Source: Planktomarina temperata RCA23 (GTDB lineage: Bacteria > Pseudomonadota > Alphaproteobacteria > Rhodobacterales > Rhodobacteraceae). From it: a DNA stretch of 64,000 bases. Where the stretch lies: NCBI RefSeq assembly GCF_000738435.1, contig NZ_CP003984.1, positions 2,542,001-2,606,000 of the forward strand, given 5' to 3'. The position numbers and the translations under genes were made by a program. Below are positions 8,283 to 13,649 of this stretch, piece after piece. Every line of letters starts with the position of its first letter. The stretch's first letter is position 1. The notes beneath the pieces are model-generated. The model had not been told where the DNA came from, ran no database searches, and worked only from the letters and a program-made list of their open reading frames with translations.

Positions 8283-8587
8283 TATACGACCTCCCCAGTT
8301 GTTTTTGCGAAACGCACTTTCTTACCGTCTTCTTCACGGAAGCCAACGCGGGTTGCTTTGCCATTGCTGTCCAGCAAGGCCAAGTTCGACAATTGGATCG
8401 GCATCGCCACTGGGATGCGACCGCCTTGGTCAGACTGGGATTGCTTGGTGTGACGGATGGCCATGTTCACGCCATCGACAACAGCTTTGCCGGCGGAAGG
8501 ATTTACAGAGGAAATTTCACCCTGCTTGCCTTTGTCCTTACCGGCCAAAACGACGACCTTGTCGCCTTTTTTCAGTTTAGCAGCCAT
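8282..8587 (-). CDS. rplX: 50S ribosomal protein L24 (uL24)
   Basis: L24 is an assembly initiator of the large subunit. The product is 101 residues with a KOW motif at the start ([21 protein letters not shown], residues 4-24 region). It follows rplN by one base and overlaps rplE by one base, so the three genes form a tight unit. Confidence 0.96.
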
Positions 8588-8588
8588 A

Positions 8589-8957
8589 TCAAAGCACCTC
8601 TGGGGCGAGTGAAATGATTTTCATGAAGTTCTTGGCACGCAGCTCACGCACAACAGGGCCAAAGATCCGTGTTCCCACGGGCTCATTTGCATTGTTGAGG
8701 ATAACGGCTGCGTTGCGATCGAAACGGATCGCTGTGCCGTCTTCACGGCGAACTTCTTTGGCGGTGCGAACAACAACGGCCTTACGGACGTCGCCCTTCT
8801 TAACACGGCCACGTGGGATGGCTTCCTTAACCGAGACAACAATGATGTCGCCTACGGATGCGTACTTACGCTTGGAACCACCCAAAACCTTGATGCACTG
8901 AACACGGCGTGCGCCGCTGTTGTCAGCTACATCCAGATTTGTTTGCATCTGGATCAT
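8589..8957 (-). CDS. rplN: 50S ribosomal protein L14 (uL14)
   Basis: L14 forms an intersubunit bridge and is the docking site of the silencing factor RsfS. The product is 122 residues with the signature [20 protein letters not shown] at the start, followed by the conserved [12 protein letters not shown]-type segment (seen here as [12 protein letters not shown]). It follows rpsQ by 67 bases. Confidence 0.97.
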
Positions 8958-9024
8958 GTGGTTACTCCCGACCTATGGGGTGCGATGCCGCAATATCCCC
9001 CAGGGTTTCGATTAAACTGCGTTG

Positions 9025-9255
9025 TTATTCTGCAATAACTTCCCAGCGTTTAGTTTTCGATTTAGGCGCACATTCTTGAATGCGAACGATATCACCTACA
9101 TTGAAAGCATTCTTCTCATCGTGCGCCCGGTACTTTTTGGACTTACGGATGGTTTTCTGCAGCAAAGCGTGCTTGAAGCGGCGTTCGACCGATACAGTCA
9201 CAGTTTGTTCGTTCTGGTTCGATGTAACGACGCCGGACAGGATACGTTTGGGCAT
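9025..9255 (-). CDS. rpsQ: 30S ribosomal protein S17 (uS17)
   Basis: A primary 16S rRNA binding protein with an OB fold. The product is 76 residues, starting [21 protein letters not shown] and containing [20 protein letters not shown]. It follows rpmC by five bases. Confidence 0.95.
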
Positions 9256-9260
9256 AGGGC

Positions 9261-9467
9261 TTACTCCTCGCCTGCGGCGGCGGCCGCTTTTTGGTTTAAG
9301 ATAGTATTTACACGGGCCACACCGCGGCGCACTTGACGCATCCGGCTTGTGTTTTCCATTTGGCCTGTCGCCTGCTGAAACCGCAGGTTAAAAGCTTCTT
9401 TTTTCAGTGCAACCAGCTCGTCACGGAGCTGATCCGGGGTCTTGTCCCGAAGTTCGTTGGCATTCAT
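9261..9467 (-). CDS. rpmC: 50S ribosomal protein L29 (uL29)
   Basis: L29 lies at the tunnel exit near the trigger-factor site. The product is 68 residues, an antiparallel helical hairpin with the conserved [18 protein letters not shown] segment and an Ala-rich tail. Upstream there is no rplP, which normally precedes it. Instead there is a 224-base divergent region and a plus-strand oxygenase gene. It is therefore the first gene of its transcription unit here. Confidence 0.95.
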
Positions 9468-9486
9468 AGCCTTTTCCTTTCAACAT

Positions 9487-9524
9487 CACTGGAGGGCGCA
9501 CGAAGGGTTACCCTGATTCCAGTG
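9487..9524 (-). other. nested stem-loop in the rpmC leader
   Basis: CACTGGA (9487-9493) pairs with TCCAGTG (9518-9524), and the enclosed region contains GGGTTACCC (9505-9513). It lies 20-57 bases upstream of the rpmC start and would form a structured leader, possibly used for autoregulation. The role is inferred from position only. Confidence 0.4.
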
Positions 9525-9562
9525 GAGATCATGATGAAGTGCTGCTTTAGTGGGGATTGAGC

Positions 9563-9571
9563 CATATAGCA
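9563..9571 (-). promoter_or_regulatory. possible extended -10 promoter for rpmC
   Basis: On the minus strand TGCTATATG (hexamer at 9563-9568) has the TGn motif of an extended -10 element. No good -35 sits 17 bases upstream. It is the best promoter candidate I can see for the rpmC-led operon. Confidence 0.3.
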
Positions 9572-9691
9572 ACCCCGCAGCGACGCTTTGTTTGCGGCAA
9601 TCTGAATTGTCGTGATTTTACCGTCCAAACACCCGTGCCAGACTGCGCTTTTCCCACTCGCCCTCGGCGTTGTGCTGCGCTACAAAACCCT

Positions 9692-10312
9692 ATGTCCGAT
9701 ATCAAATCGCTTTTCGCAACCCGCCTGTATCACGCCGCGCTCTGTGAGCACGGCCCCTCTGTTGACACCGATGAGCTGACGGCCTCCTGCCTGGCCATCG
9801 CGGAAGATGACGAGGCCGGTCAAGACTGGTGTGACAAGAATGACTTTCCTGGTTACACCAGCTATGCCTCCCTCACCGATCTAGATTGGCGTTTCCCAAT
9901 CTTCAAAGATGTGGTGACCGCGTTGGACTTGCATGTCGCCCAATTTGCTAAAGATCTCGACTTTGATTTGGGCGAGAAAGCCATCACGCTCGACAGCCTT
10001 TGGATCAATATTTTGCCCTATGGTGGCATTCATACCGCCCATATTCACCCCCATTCAATCATCAGCGGCACCACCTATGTGGCGATGCCTGAAGGCACCA
10101 GCGCTATCAAATTCGAAGACCCGCGCCTGGCCATGATGATGGCGGCCCCGACGCGCCGAAAAACCGCACGCGAAGAGCTGCGCAGTTTTTTCTACGCCAA
10201 ACCAAAGGTCGGGGATGTGTTGTTGTGGGAAAGTTGGCTGCGCCACGAAGTGCCAATGAATATGGCAGAAGACGACAGAATTTCTGTGAGTTTTAACTAC
10301 AGCTGGGGCTAG
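9692..10312 (+). CDS. putative 2-oxoglutarate/Fe(II)-dependent oxygenase (TIGR02466-like)
   Basis: A 206-residue protein from the ATG at 9692 (MSDIKSLFATRLYHA). A longer in-frame reading from 9557 lacks family support. The core resembles the TIGR02466 family of putative 2OG oxygenases. It has a histidine cluster HTAHIHPHS (residues 114-122) with H119 a likely iron ligand, TTYVAMPEG (127-135), then GDVLLWESWLRHEVP (174-188) with H185 as second histidine and R196 as candidate 2OG anchor. It is the only plus-strand gene inside the ribosomal cluster and occupies the site where rplB-rpsS-rplV-rpsC-rplP should be. The substrate is unknown. Confidence 0.75.
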   Translation: MSDIKSLFATRLYHAALCEHGPSVDTDELTASCLAIAEDDEAGQDWCDKNDFPGYTSYASLTDLDWRFPIFKDVVTALDLHVAQFAKDLDFDLGEKAITLDSLWINILPYGGIHTAHIHPHSIISGTTYVAMPEGTSAIKFEDPRLAMMMAAPTRRKTAREELRSFFYAKPKVGDVLLWESWLRHEVPMNMAEDDRISVSFNYSWG

Positions 10313-10369
10313 TTCGGGCGTAAGCAAACCGTAGACCGTGCTGGATGATCGCGCGGCCCACGATCAAAA

Positions 10370-10399
10370 AATGCGCCCGCATCGAAATGCGGACGCATT
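10370..10399 (-). terminator. intrinsic terminator after rplW
   Basis: A 13-base stem with one mismatch (10370-10382 with 10387-10399) and a CGAA loop lies seven bases after the rplW stop. On the minus strand it is followed by six T. It ends the str/S10 unit and, in the other direction, could also stop the convergent oxygenase transcript. Confidence 0.8.
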
Positions 10400-10406
10400 G
10401 AAAATC

Positions 10407-10703
10407 TTACAACCCAGTCGTTACGTCGATTGTGTTGCCTTCTTCAAGGGTCACATAGGCTTTTTTCACATCACGGCGTTTGCCGAGCATGCCGCGAAAG
10501 CGCTTTGATTTCCCTTTGGTGATCGTAGTGTTCACCGCTTTAACCTTCACGTCAAACAGGCTTTCAACAGCCTCTTTGATGCTGGGCTTATTGCTGTCGA
10601 TAGCCACTTCAAACACAACCGCGCCATTTTCAGAGGCCATTGTGGTTTTCTCAGTGATGATCGGCTTGCGGATCACATCGTAATGTTCTGGTTTCGCGCT
10701 CAT
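10407..10703 (-). CDS. rplW: 50S ribosomal protein L23 (uL23)
   Basis: L23 is the docking site for SRP and trigger factor at the tunnel exit. The product is 98 residues with the conserved [16 protein letters not shown] start and [19 protein letters not shown] loop. It overlaps rplD by four bases. It is the last gene of its unit, whereas rplB normally follows. Confidence 0.96.
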
Positions 10704-11317
10704 TTCAAACGGGCCTCCAAAGCTTCCAACCCTGCTTTTGTGATCACAAGAGTGTCACGCTTCAGGATATCAAACACATTCGCACCCATTGTCGGCAGGA
10801 TATCCAGACCTTCAATATTCCGCGCTGCCTGTGCAAAGTTTTCATTTACAGCTGCGCCGTCGATGATCAAAGCACGTTTCCAACCCAAGTTCGCAACCGC
10901 TTTGGCCAGCGCACCTGTTTTACCGTCAGAAACAGCCGCATCAATCACAACCAGCTCACCCGCTTTTGCTTTCGCAGACAGAGCATGCTTCAGACCCAGC
11001 GCCCGCACTTTTTTCGGCAAATCATGGCCGTGGCTGCGCGGTGTTGGACCTTTATAAACGCCGCCACCGCGGAAGATCGGAGCAGAACGCGCGCCGTGAC
11101 GTGCGCCGCCGGTGCCTTTCTGACGATAGATCTTCTTGGTGGAGTAGCTGACTTCAGACCGGGTTTTCACCTTATGTGTACCAGCCTGCGCATTGTTACG
11201 CTGCCAGCGCACAACACGGTGCAGGATGTCGACACGTGGCTCAAGACCAAACAATGCCTCATTTAGATCAATCGAACCGGCCTTGCCGCCGTCGAGTTTG
11301 ATGACATCTAGTTTCAT
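10700..11317 (-). CDS. rplD: 50S ribosomal protein L4 (uL4)
   Basis: L4 reaches into the exit tunnel and, in E. coli, represses the S10 operon. The product is 205 residues, with the extended tunnel loop near [21 protein letters not shown]-like sequence at residues 53-73 and the family segment [16 protein letters not shown]. It overlaps rplC and rplW by four bases each, so the three are translationally coupled. Confidence 0.96.
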
Positions 11318-12045
11318 GCTTCACCGCCTTCCGCAGGAGCGTCAGCTACAGGAGCTTCGGCCGGTGCGGCTGCTGATTTGATTGCTGCTGGAAAAGGAAC
11401 GCCGTCAGGCAATTTCTTTTTCATCGCATCTTTGATTGTGACCCAGCCGCCCTTGGAACCTGGAACCGCGCCTTTGACCATGATCAAACCGCGATCAGCG
11501 TCTGTACGCACAACTTCCAAGTTCTGGGTGGTGACTTTCGCCGCACCCATGTGACCGGCCATTTTCTTGCCTTTGAACACTTTACCCGGATCTTGACATT
11601 GACCTGTCGAACCGTGGGAACGGTGGCTGATGGACACACCGTGTGATGCACGCAAACCGCCAAAGTTCCAGCGCTTCATCGCACCTTGGAAACCTTTACC
11701 GATCGATGTGCCGGATACGTCAACCATTTGACCTTCAAGGAAATGTTCGGCTGAAATCTCAGCACCCACTTCAATCAAGTTTTCAGCAGAGACGCGGAAT
11801 TCGGCAACTTTACGCTTGGGCGCAACATTTGCCTTGGCAAAATGGCCGCGCATCGCTTGGCTTGTGCGTTTAGCTTTTGCCGATCCAGCGCCCAATTGCA
11901 CGGCTGTGTAACCATCCAAATCGGCAGTACGCTGTGCGACAACTTGCAGACCATCCAAAGCGAGCACTGTCACCGGGATTTGCTTACCGTCTTCCATGAA
12001 CAAACGGGTCATGCCCATTTTTTTCGCAATAACTCCAGAGCGCAT
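11314..12045 (-). CDS. rplC: 50S ribosomal protein L3 (uL3)
   Basis: L3 is an early assembly protein near the peptidyl transferase centre. The product is 243 residues from the ATG at 12045 ([16 protein letters not shown]). An upstream TTG two codons earlier is too close to the GGGGGG ribosome binding site. The glutamine methylation region [20 protein letters not shown] is present. An Ala-rich C-terminal tail extends it beyond the E. coli protein, as is common in alphaproteobacteria. Confidence 0.95.
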
Positions 12046-12059
12046 AATCAATACCCCCC

Positions 12060-12368
12060 TTAAACTGAGATTTGCACGTCAACACCGGCAGCCAGGTCGA
12101 GCTTCATCAGCGCGTCCACGGTCTGTGGTGTTGGATCAACGATATCCAGCAGGCGTTTGTGCGTGCGGATTTCAAACTGGTCACGAGATTTTTTGTCAAC
12201 GTGAGGGCCACGCAGAACTGTAAATTTCTCGATTTTGTTCGGCAGTGGGATTGGGCCACGTACCTGCGCACCTGTCCGTTTGGCTGTATTGACGATCTCG
12301 AGTGTGGACGCATCCAACACACGGTGGTCAAAGGCCTTCAGACGAATGCGGATATTTTGACTTTGCAT
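12060..12368 (-). CDS. rpsJ: 30S ribosomal protein S10 (uS10, NusE)
   Basis: S10 is both a ribosomal protein and the NusE antitermination factor that links NusG to the ribosome. The product is 102 residues from the ATG at 12368 ([16 protein letters not shown]), with conserved [19 protein letters not shown] longer in-frame reading upstream is not conserved. It is preceded by GAAAGGGGTAACGA containing the ribosome binding site. Confidence 0.96.
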
Positions 12369-12438
12369 TTCGTTACCCCTTTCCAGGGCTTGAAGTCTGT
12401 TGATAGGAGGACCGGCGAACCCGCCCTCGTCGAACGGT

Positions 12439-12462
12439 GCAGGCCTCACGAATGAGGCCTGC
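12439..12462 (-). other. UUCG-capped hairpin between tuf and rpsJ
   Basis: A perfect ten-pair stem (12439-12448 with 12453-12462) closes on a loop that reads TTCG on the minus strand, an exceptionally stable tetraloop. No T run follows, so it is not an intrinsic terminator. It may mark an RNA processing or 3' stabilising site for the tuf message. Confidence 0.55.
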
Positions 12463-12473
12463 GGTAGTGAGTT

Positions 12474-13649
12474 TTACTCGTTGATTTTGGATACGACACC
12501 GGCGCCGACGGTGCGGCCGCCTTCGCGGATGGCGAAGCGCAGGCCGGTTTCCATGGCGATTGGGGCGATCAGCTCAACGTCGAATTTGAGGTTATCACCT
12601 GGCATCACCATTTCAGTACCCGAAGGCAGAACAACTGTGCCGGTCACATCGGTGGTCCGGAAGTAGAACTGTGGACGGTAGTTGGCGAAGAATGGCGTGT
12701 GACGGCCACCTTCTTCTTTGGTCAGAATATAGGCTTCGGCTTCAAACTTCGTGTGAGGCTTCACAGAACCTGGCTTACACAGGATCTGACCGCGCTCAAC
12801 GCCATTGCGGTCGATGCCGCGCAGCAGAACACCTACGTTGTCGCCAGCTTCACCGCGATCGAGCAGTTTGCGGAACATTTCAACGCCTGTGCAGACAGTT
12901 TTCGATGTGTCACGGATGCCGACGATTTCAATCTCTTCGCCCACATTGATCACACCGCGCTCAATACGGCCAGTTACAACTGTACCACGGCCGGAGATTG
13001 AGAACACATCCTCGATCGGCAGCAAGAAAGGCTGGTCAACCGCACGCGCCGGTGTTGGGATATACTCATCCACAGCCGCCATCAATTTTGCGATGGACTC
13101 AGAGCCAATAGCCGCGTCGCGATCTTCCAAAGCGGCCAAAGCAGAGCCGGCAATCACAGGGATATCATCGCCAGGATATTCGTAGCTGGACAGCAGCTCA
13201 CGGATTTCCATTTCAACCAATTCGAGCAACTCGTCGTCGTCAACTTGGTCAACTTTGTTCATGTAAACAACCATGTAAGGAATGCCAACCTGACGGCCGA
13301 GCAAAATGTGCTCACGGGTCTGTGGCATCGGGCCATCGGCCGCGTTCACAACCAAGATCGCACCATCCATCTGCGCCGCACCGGTGATCATGTTTTTCAC
13401 ATAGTCAGCGTGGCCAGGGCAATCAACATGCGCGTAGTGGCGGGTCTCTGTTTCATATTCAACATGCGCAGTCGAAATCGTAATACCACGGGCCTTCTCT
13501 TCCGGCGCGCCGTCAATCTCGTCATAGGCTTTAAAATCACCAAATTGCTTGGTGATCGCAGCTGTCAAGGTTGTCTTACCATGGTCAACGTGACCAATCG
13601 TGCCGATGTTAACGTGGGGTTTCGAGCGTTCAAACTTTTCCTTAGCCAT
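12474..13649 (-). CDS. tuf: elongation factor Tu
   Basis: EF-Tu is the GTPase that delivers aminoacyl-tRNA to the ribosome. The product is 391 residues. The P-loop GHVDHGKT lies at residues 19-26, DCPGH near 80, NKVD near 135, and the second and third beta-barrel domains follow. It sits between fusA and rpsJ in the str operon. Relatives usually carry a second tuf elsewhere, which cannot be judged from this window. Confidence 0.97.

Follow-up and report, generated by a model that had tools for sequence, protein, structure and literature searches.

In Planktomarina temperata RCA23, five genes of the S10 operon have parted from the rest. We find rplB, rpsS, rplV, rpsC and rplP as an intact block at about C1:2755430-2758082 on the plus strand, 203 kb from the remainder of the operon, on the same contig and on the opposite strand. 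On the sequence evidence, this split arose by a derived relocation and reflects no loss of genes or error of assembly, since both new junctions recur in separate assemblies and sister species keep the ancestral order. We consider it probable that what moved, in this lineage specifically, was a sub-operon that had already become autonomous.

The split locus and the relocated block

The S10 operon is a textbook example of conserved gene order. The window, by which we mean the whole stretch of 64,000 nucleotides that was analysed (C1:2542001-2606000 of a genome consisting of a single contig of 3,288,122 bp), holds the remainder of that operon, and the canonical contiguity of rplW with rplB and of rplP with rpmC is absent from it. 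Its relevant features, in window positions, are as follows.

12381-12437, minus strand: structured rpsJ leader, conserved; no Rfam 15 match
12060-12368, minus strand: rpsJ (S10), first gene of the proposed first module, with its ATG at 12368
10700-11317, minus strand: rplD (L4), which remains with the first module; named from its translation
10407-10703, minus strand: rplW (L23), last gene of the proposed first module; matches NCBIfam L23 models
10370-10399, minus strand: intrinsic terminator-like hairpin directly 3′ of rplW, with a 13-bp stem and a T run
9692-10312, plus strand: 2OG-Fe(II) oxygenase gene (TIGR02466/PF13759), antisense, at the joint vacated by the five genes
9544-9572, minus strand: predicted promoter-like site for rpmC, TTGCTA - 17 - TAAAGC
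9468-9527, minus strand: structured rpmC leader, conserved, with two helices and an NA bulge; no Rfam 15 match
9261-9467, minus strand: rpmC (L29), first gene of the proposed third module (rpmC-spc); matches the L29 model

An earlier note on this DNA had described rplW as followed by a terminator, a plus-strand oxygenase gene and then rpmC. Gene models confirm this order, as does the fold of the hairpin 3′ of rplW (-23.5 kcal/mol, z -5.9 against shuffles). In genome coordinates, rplW occupies C1:2552407-2552703. The family and structure searches with the oxygenase ran from 9695, and its start codon at 9692 was taken from the sequence. None of rplB, rpsS, rplV, rpsC and rplP is among the open reading frames between rplW and rpmC, which bears out the absence first remarked upon.

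The genome search that had been proposed for these genes located the block, complete. The names of its genes come from their translations, and tblastn recovered the same genes in relatives. The whole genome contains a single rplB match (domain C1:2755802-2756179, plus strand), and the intact block elsewhere on the contig rules out gene loss. On its 5′ side lies a TauE/SafE gene (PF01925), along with a putative SDR dehydrogenase gene and an SMC gene, both labelled by appearance. On its 3′ side are a small zinc-ribbon-like gene, which has no Pfam match over the cut-off, and a tRNA. A 13-bp terminator-like stem follows rplP at the new site. The block is accompanied by a promoter-like site, an RF03142 leader and a terminator-like hairpin.

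Gene order within Planktomarina

Gene order in the relatives was mapped by tblastn. The junction rplW-oxygenase-rpmC occurs in all four genomes of the split clade that have this side in view (G000, the genome of the window, with G004, G001 and G006). The junction SMC-SDR-TauE-block-zinc-ribbon likewise occurs in all four that have the other side in view (G000, G004, G001 and G002). In six further genomes of the same genus (G005, G017, G018, G016, G014 and G010), the block still lies between rplW and rpmC, and an antisense oxygenase-like gene lies between rplP and rpmC. These intact sisters already possess it, so the move came after an oxygenase-like gene had taken its place at the rplP|rpmC joint.

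The remaining genomes are less complete. The ancestral order is also present in G009, a MAG full of frameshifts; the consecutive ribosomal protein genes with broken frames on its contig C16 (L068) are most likely sequencing errors. G012 keeps the order, with 2.8 kb at the first joint (rplW|rplB) and 10.2 kb, including an N run, at the second (rplP|rpmC). In G008, rplW and rplB are joined and the contig ends within rpsC, and in G019 the first joint spans 3.3 kb and is followed by a contig end. Only the rplW side is visible in G011, only the block side in G013, and neither rplB nor rplW was matched in G003, G007 and G015.

Comparison of gene order in close relatives, also proposed earlier, therefore shows new junctions that recur throughout the split clade and sisters that keep the ancestral order. 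The earlier note had left a choice between genes lying elsewhere in the genome and a misassembly: the first held, with the block 203 kb away, and the second fell, as both junctions recur. The same recurrence in other genomes of the genus supports its further suggestion of a real, adapted arrangement.

Two joints across the family

Outside the family, both joints are closed. We examined 15 loci, each from another alphaproteobacterial family and picked for contig room from 21 genomes with an rplB match. rplW and rplB are contiguous in all 15 (gaps of 5-38 bp), rplP and rpmC are contiguous in all 14 with rpmC in view (5-57 bp), and none of the 15 loci has an oxygenase match.

Within Rhodobacteraceae, the family of the window, 246 genomes were surveyed for rplB and rplW. 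Coordinates absent from the first listings were sought again in 80 of 83 and 80 of 81 genomes, and in all 225 genomes gave coordinates for both genes. The two genes lie on one contig, on the same strand and less than 10 kb apart in 207. Here the gap, estimated from domain positions, has a median of 322 bp and a maximum of 9.0 kb, exceeding 300 bp in 104 genomes and 1 kb in 70. In eight of the 225, rplW and rplB are separated or inverted. The distance is 203 kb in the window's genome, 140 kb in G028 and 73 kb in G270; in G080 the genes are on opposite strands about 10 kb apart; and in G102, G136, G070 and G021 the contig continues beyond rplW without rplB. Ten more genomes have the two genes on different contigs and were not counted as separated, although in two of them (G146 and G236) rplB is absent from at least the first 9.5 kb beyond rplW.

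In five of these genomes (G270, G102, G070, G021 and G080), only the first joint is broken and the block still adjoins rpmC. The Planktomarina clade, KLH11 and G028, where the block is reversed and lies beside an oxygenase, show changes at both joints. G136 has no rpmC within 8 kb after rplP. On contig C15 of G021 (L081), fusA and rpsG are reversed 4.5 kb upstream of the block, so that str genes are rearranged as well.

A second, named set comprised 80 loci out of at least 551 RplW matches. Of these, 66 are contiguous (gaps of 96-5190 bp), five are cut by contig ends, and nine are separated or inverted: Planktomarina FRAM18_bin059, Roseovarius gahaiensis, three Ruegeria sp. (HKCCD7303, 6PALISEP08 and PrR005), KLH11 and three uncultured organisms. 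The two sets overlap (FRAM18_bin059 is G001, and PrR005 is G070), and not every event counted is an independent one. KLH11 (L206) has the five-gene block, and nothing else, turned round in place, while rpsJ-rplW, the oxygenase and rpmC keep their direction. In two Ruegeria loci (L191 and L193), the turned segment takes in rpmC and rplN as well. In none of the mapped loci is the first or the middle module itself interrupted. These maps indicate that the S10 operon is opened at two joints in this family, rplW|rplB and rplP|rpmC.

The second joint commonly houses an oxygenase-like gene. One was called, by tblastn at more than 60 bits to the TIGR02466 gene of the window, in 69 of 83 loci with rplP and rpmC on one strand, 41 times in sense and 28 times in antisense (some genomes being counted twice). 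The window gene scores 353-359 bits against the uncharacterised structures 2RG4 and 3BVC. It is much nearer to these than to the sisters' joint genes, with which it shares only 38-44% identity; a tree of the joint genes nonetheless places it with those of the sisters. In E. coli, ribosomal protein L16 is hydroxylated by a 2OG oxygenase, and because rplP encodes L16, a ribosomal substrate for the joint oxygenase is worth considering.

A known leader before rplB

The leader directly 5′ of the moved rplB is RF03142 (L2-Alphaproteobacteria). It scores 73.8 bits against a gathering score of 37.8, the highest among the RF03142 scores listed for the 246 family genomes. It occupies positions 9362-9428 of the block locus (L002), with the rplB ATG at 9431, and its fold has a z of -2.9. 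RF03142 is present in 211 of the 246 genomes, 169 of them above the gathering score, and twice in four genomes; it is found in none of 14 controls and in none of the 12 outgroup loci, out of 15, that were scanned with Rfam. It precedes rplB in all eight separated or inverted genomes.

At E<1e-7, the leader occurs in 92 of 104 genomes with a gap of more than 300 bp, as opposed to 51 of 103 with a smaller gap (Fisher p 8e-10, for genomes that are not phylogenetically independent and with no correction for kinship). This association is partly trivial, because the leader needs room, and 12 of the 104 wide-gap genomes have no strong match.

The first hairpin was surveyed in 205 loci with sequence upstream of rplB, outgroups and duplicates included. 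Its pattern is lacking in 64; the remainder comprise 104 distinct sequences, of which a few are chance or shifted matches. Among these 104, the fourth pair covaries, being GC in 60 and CG in 36, and an A.G mismatch is kept in 99. In seven loci (L101, L109, L114, L120, L164, L165 and L169), the first hairpin occurs twice in tandem upstream of rplB, as if a protein-binding site had been duplicated.

Two leaders unmatched in Rfam 15

Two further elements, before rpmC and before rpsJ, went unmatched by Rfam 15, both in the window (8500-13000, with E allowed up to 1) and in the relatives L069 and L075. The rpmC leader was aligned from 59 distinct sequences, with four variants excluded (L166, L194, L198 and L235). 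They share the helices CAC-YRG...C-YRGTG and GGU-NA-CCC...GGG-GCC. The strict motif pattern missed 42 of 76 rpmC loci, in which variants of the motif are visible by eye. Pairing holds in 96.0% of the aligned cells, compared with 90.6% in shuffles, and six of 13 pairs show double changes, a count reached by none of 500 shuffles; alignments that were slid pair in at most 56.5%. RNAalifold alone recovers the outer helix, along with the base of the inner helix. The earlier note had seen a leader hairpin before rpmC, and this hairpin proves to belong to a conserved, covarying element.

Run over 55 loci with 1.05 Mb in all, a model of the rpmC leader (R1) gave 22 matches, every one immediately ahead of rpmC, although most of these are its training sequences. 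On 20 held-out genomes, it found the leader at rpmC in 19, the twentieth (G262) having no rpmC in view, together with one weak extra match (E 0.47). None of the held-out leaders is identical to a training sequence, the closest sharing 73-95%, and the same genus may be in both sets. The held-out matches are 96.7% paired, with none of 500 shuffles as high, in an alignment that was fitted to the model and includes the weak extra match. Class-wide, under stricter filters, R1 matched three of 144 genomes, all in the window's family; some of the 121 unlisted genomes may be from that family too. In the 15 outgroup loci it matched nothing, 0.62 being the best E. One record named Nocardioides marinus (L230, JAHVJD010000009.1) carries the rpmC leader and a roseobacter-like rplW that is 89% identical to that of the window; it is probably mislabelled or contaminated.

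The rpsJ leader has the shape GUUCGAYGAGG-hairpin-CCUCCUMUCAAC. Its alignment holds 82 distinct sequences from 108 loci with rpsJ, after exclusion of short or N-bearing sequences and of three without the pattern (L160, L188 and L225). Pairing reaches 93.0% of cells against 76.5% in shuffles, and the covariation score is 0.445 against 0.142, with none of 500 shuffles as high. Double-change pairs are less distinctive (nine against 6.7, reached by 17 of 500 shuffles). In the outer stem, the inner two pairs co-change in six sequences, and pair 12-39 fails in 15 of the 82. A model of this leader (R2) matched 12 of 19 held-out family genomes, one only partially, and none of the 15 outgroup loci. All 19 genomes have rpsJ, so with seven lacking the leader it is not general to the family.

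In the window, neither leader has an exceptional folding energy (z -0.6 for rpmC, -0.1 for rpsJ), so it is covariation that supports the two elements. Each has what characterises an r-leader, a conserved structure with compensatory changes before a ribosomal protein gene.

Promoter-like and terminator-like signals at the joints

Predicted signals for separate transcription are visible in an operon that is still whole. In the intact sister L059, folding places one hairpin, trailed by a U run, after rplW and another, with a U-rich tail, after rplP, of which a mechanical terminator scan listed only the latter. A scan with the sigma-70 consensus gave no promoter at the joints. The pattern TTGMC-N16-18-TA occurs before rplB in 49 of 110 distinct upstream sequences (5.6 expected) and before rpmC in 51 of 86 (2.8 expected), for a pattern picked after looking and an expectation drawn from mononucleotide shuffles only. 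The promoter-like site before rpmC in the window itself falls outside this pattern. From the hairpins in L059 and the promoter-like sites before rplB and rpmC, we infer that transcription of the operon was already divided among several units when the physical cut came.

How the operon may have come apart

Observed positions, recurrence, conservation and covariation are the starting point of the explanation that we prefer. In it, the S10 operon of this family would have become three transcription modules: rpsJ-rplC-rplD-rplW, then rplB-rpsS-rplV-rpsC-rplP, and lastly rpmC with the spc genes. Promoters, structured leaders and terminators would have emerged at the rplW|rplB and rplP|rpmC joints. 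With each module independently expressed and controlled, insertions, inversions and translocations at the joints would no longer be lethal. The middle module of the P. temperata clade would then have moved 203 kb and been flipped, together with its promoter-like site, RF03142 and terminator, leaving rplW-terminator-oxygenase-leader-rpmC as the residue at the old site. Three-module control would have come first and physical separation later. Each leader would be a putative feedback site for a ribosomal protein of its own module, in place of common control. Since L4 stays behind, the ligand encoded in cis with the middle module, if its control is autogenous, would be L2, S19, L22, S3 or L16. The explanation supposes promoter activity, regulation, ligands, an order of events and a DNA mechanism of the move. 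Counting against it, most separated genomes are broken at the first joint only, with the block staying beside rpmC.

In its broadest form, which we regard as evenly poised between right and wrong, many members of the family exchanged single-leader S10 control for up to three independent r-leaders, those of rpsJ and rpmC being new to Rfam. This would have let the operon be repeatedly opened, flipped and moved at two fixed joints. The P. temperata clade would be the extreme case, its middle module standing alone, probably against the replication fork, under a leader that, if autogenous, answers to one of its own five proteins.

The strongest alternative, which we judge unlikely, is that a chance rearrangement moved the block, and that the leaders and promoters at the joints have nothing to do with how readily the operon breaks. 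Such a rearrangement would suit the lack of repeats or a mobile element at the sites examined, the partly trivial association of leader and gap, and the breaks that also occur outside S10 genes (fusA and rpsG beside the block in G021). It accounts poorly for mapped loci in which no break enters the first or middle module, for the flip of exactly five genes between unchanged neighbours in KLH11 and the reversed block beside the oxygenase in G028, and for a leader beside rplB in all eight separated genomes. At the breakpoints of two relatives with turned blocks, the flanking repeats are only short, imperfect pairs. No empty target site could be reconstructed, the TauE-like and zinc-ribbon-like genes being on different contigs in G009 and G014. 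In these two genomes, the only intact sisters with both genes, they stand in other surroundings at 66-73% identity and may not be orthologues.

It is very improbable that the block reached a mirror position on the opposite replichore through inversions symmetric about the origin, as the divergent orientation of block and remainder in G000 and G004 might suggest. A dnaA-like gene was recognised by its motif at C1:101-1444. The GC skew has a negative sign at each of the two loci and for the most part between them, and some of the sampled stretches do not follow the simple pattern (for instance -0.034 at 0.75 Mb, +0.011 at 2.40 Mb, 0.000 at 2.63 Mb). For G000, we reject this route, as the dnaA-like position and the skew put both loci probably on one replichore. 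Judged from the dnaA-like gene at C1:101 and the negative skew of the two loci, the S10 remainder is probably transcribed codirectionally with replication, and the relocated block head-on to it. A fork-facing orientation is an odd place for essential ribosomal protein genes.

That two loci were wrongly joined, with the five genes really lying between rplW and rpmC, is scarcely credible: the window alone shows the contiguity of one assembly only, but both junctions are also present in other genomes from Planktomarina, and rplB is single-copy with flanks of its own.

Comparison with known systems

Under the preferred reading, of an autonomous module relocated, the family offers natural experiments in dismemberment of the S10 operon, from the closed state of other families to operons opened with leaders, insertions, inversions and full relocation. 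By its extent, the relocated block marks out the RF03142 unit and leaves five proteins as possible cis-encoded ligands, so that the question of the ligand becomes testable. The two candidate leaders that Rfam did not match could account for the maintenance of stoichiometry in the other modules. Beyond what was first noted, the oxygenase-like gene predates the split, RF03142 moved with the block, and the first joint has been broken repeatedly. The literature consulted, which includes PMC7247131, PMC2704228, PMC2864571, PMC8046335 and PMC10675870 but few subscription journals and no supplements, contains no report of the two leaders or of the split.

Published work on the conserved ribosomal cluster likewise describes a highly conserved cluster altered in evolution. 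It deals with Gammaproteobacteria and Bacilli, with gene insertions between operons as one example, and its main text nowhere names Alphaproteobacteria. The split S10 operon is a variant of this known kind of rearrangement; greater interest attaches to the two unlisted leaders and to the way breaks recur at fixed joints. In E. coli, the S10 operon has the same genes and, as here, a structured leader before rpsJ, through which L4 is described as regulating the operon (PMC2704228). There it is one operon of eleven genes, whereas here we propose three modules. The E. coli leader is bound by L4; the rpsJ element here has no match in Rfam 15, a catalogue that may not contain the L4-bound S10 leader of E. 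coli.

The closest known counterpart is RF03142 itself, published with rplB, rpsS, rplV and rpsC as its regulated genes (Eckert et al. 2020, PMC7247131). Table 1 of that paper rates it as a borderline candidate ('?'), with a ligand picked as 'closest'. The element found here is the same and stands in the same place before rplB. Its unit in the split genomes does not encode L4, and several relatives carry its first hairpin in tandem. The published list of genes stops at rpsC, whereas a natural relocation here bounds the unit from rplB to rplP.
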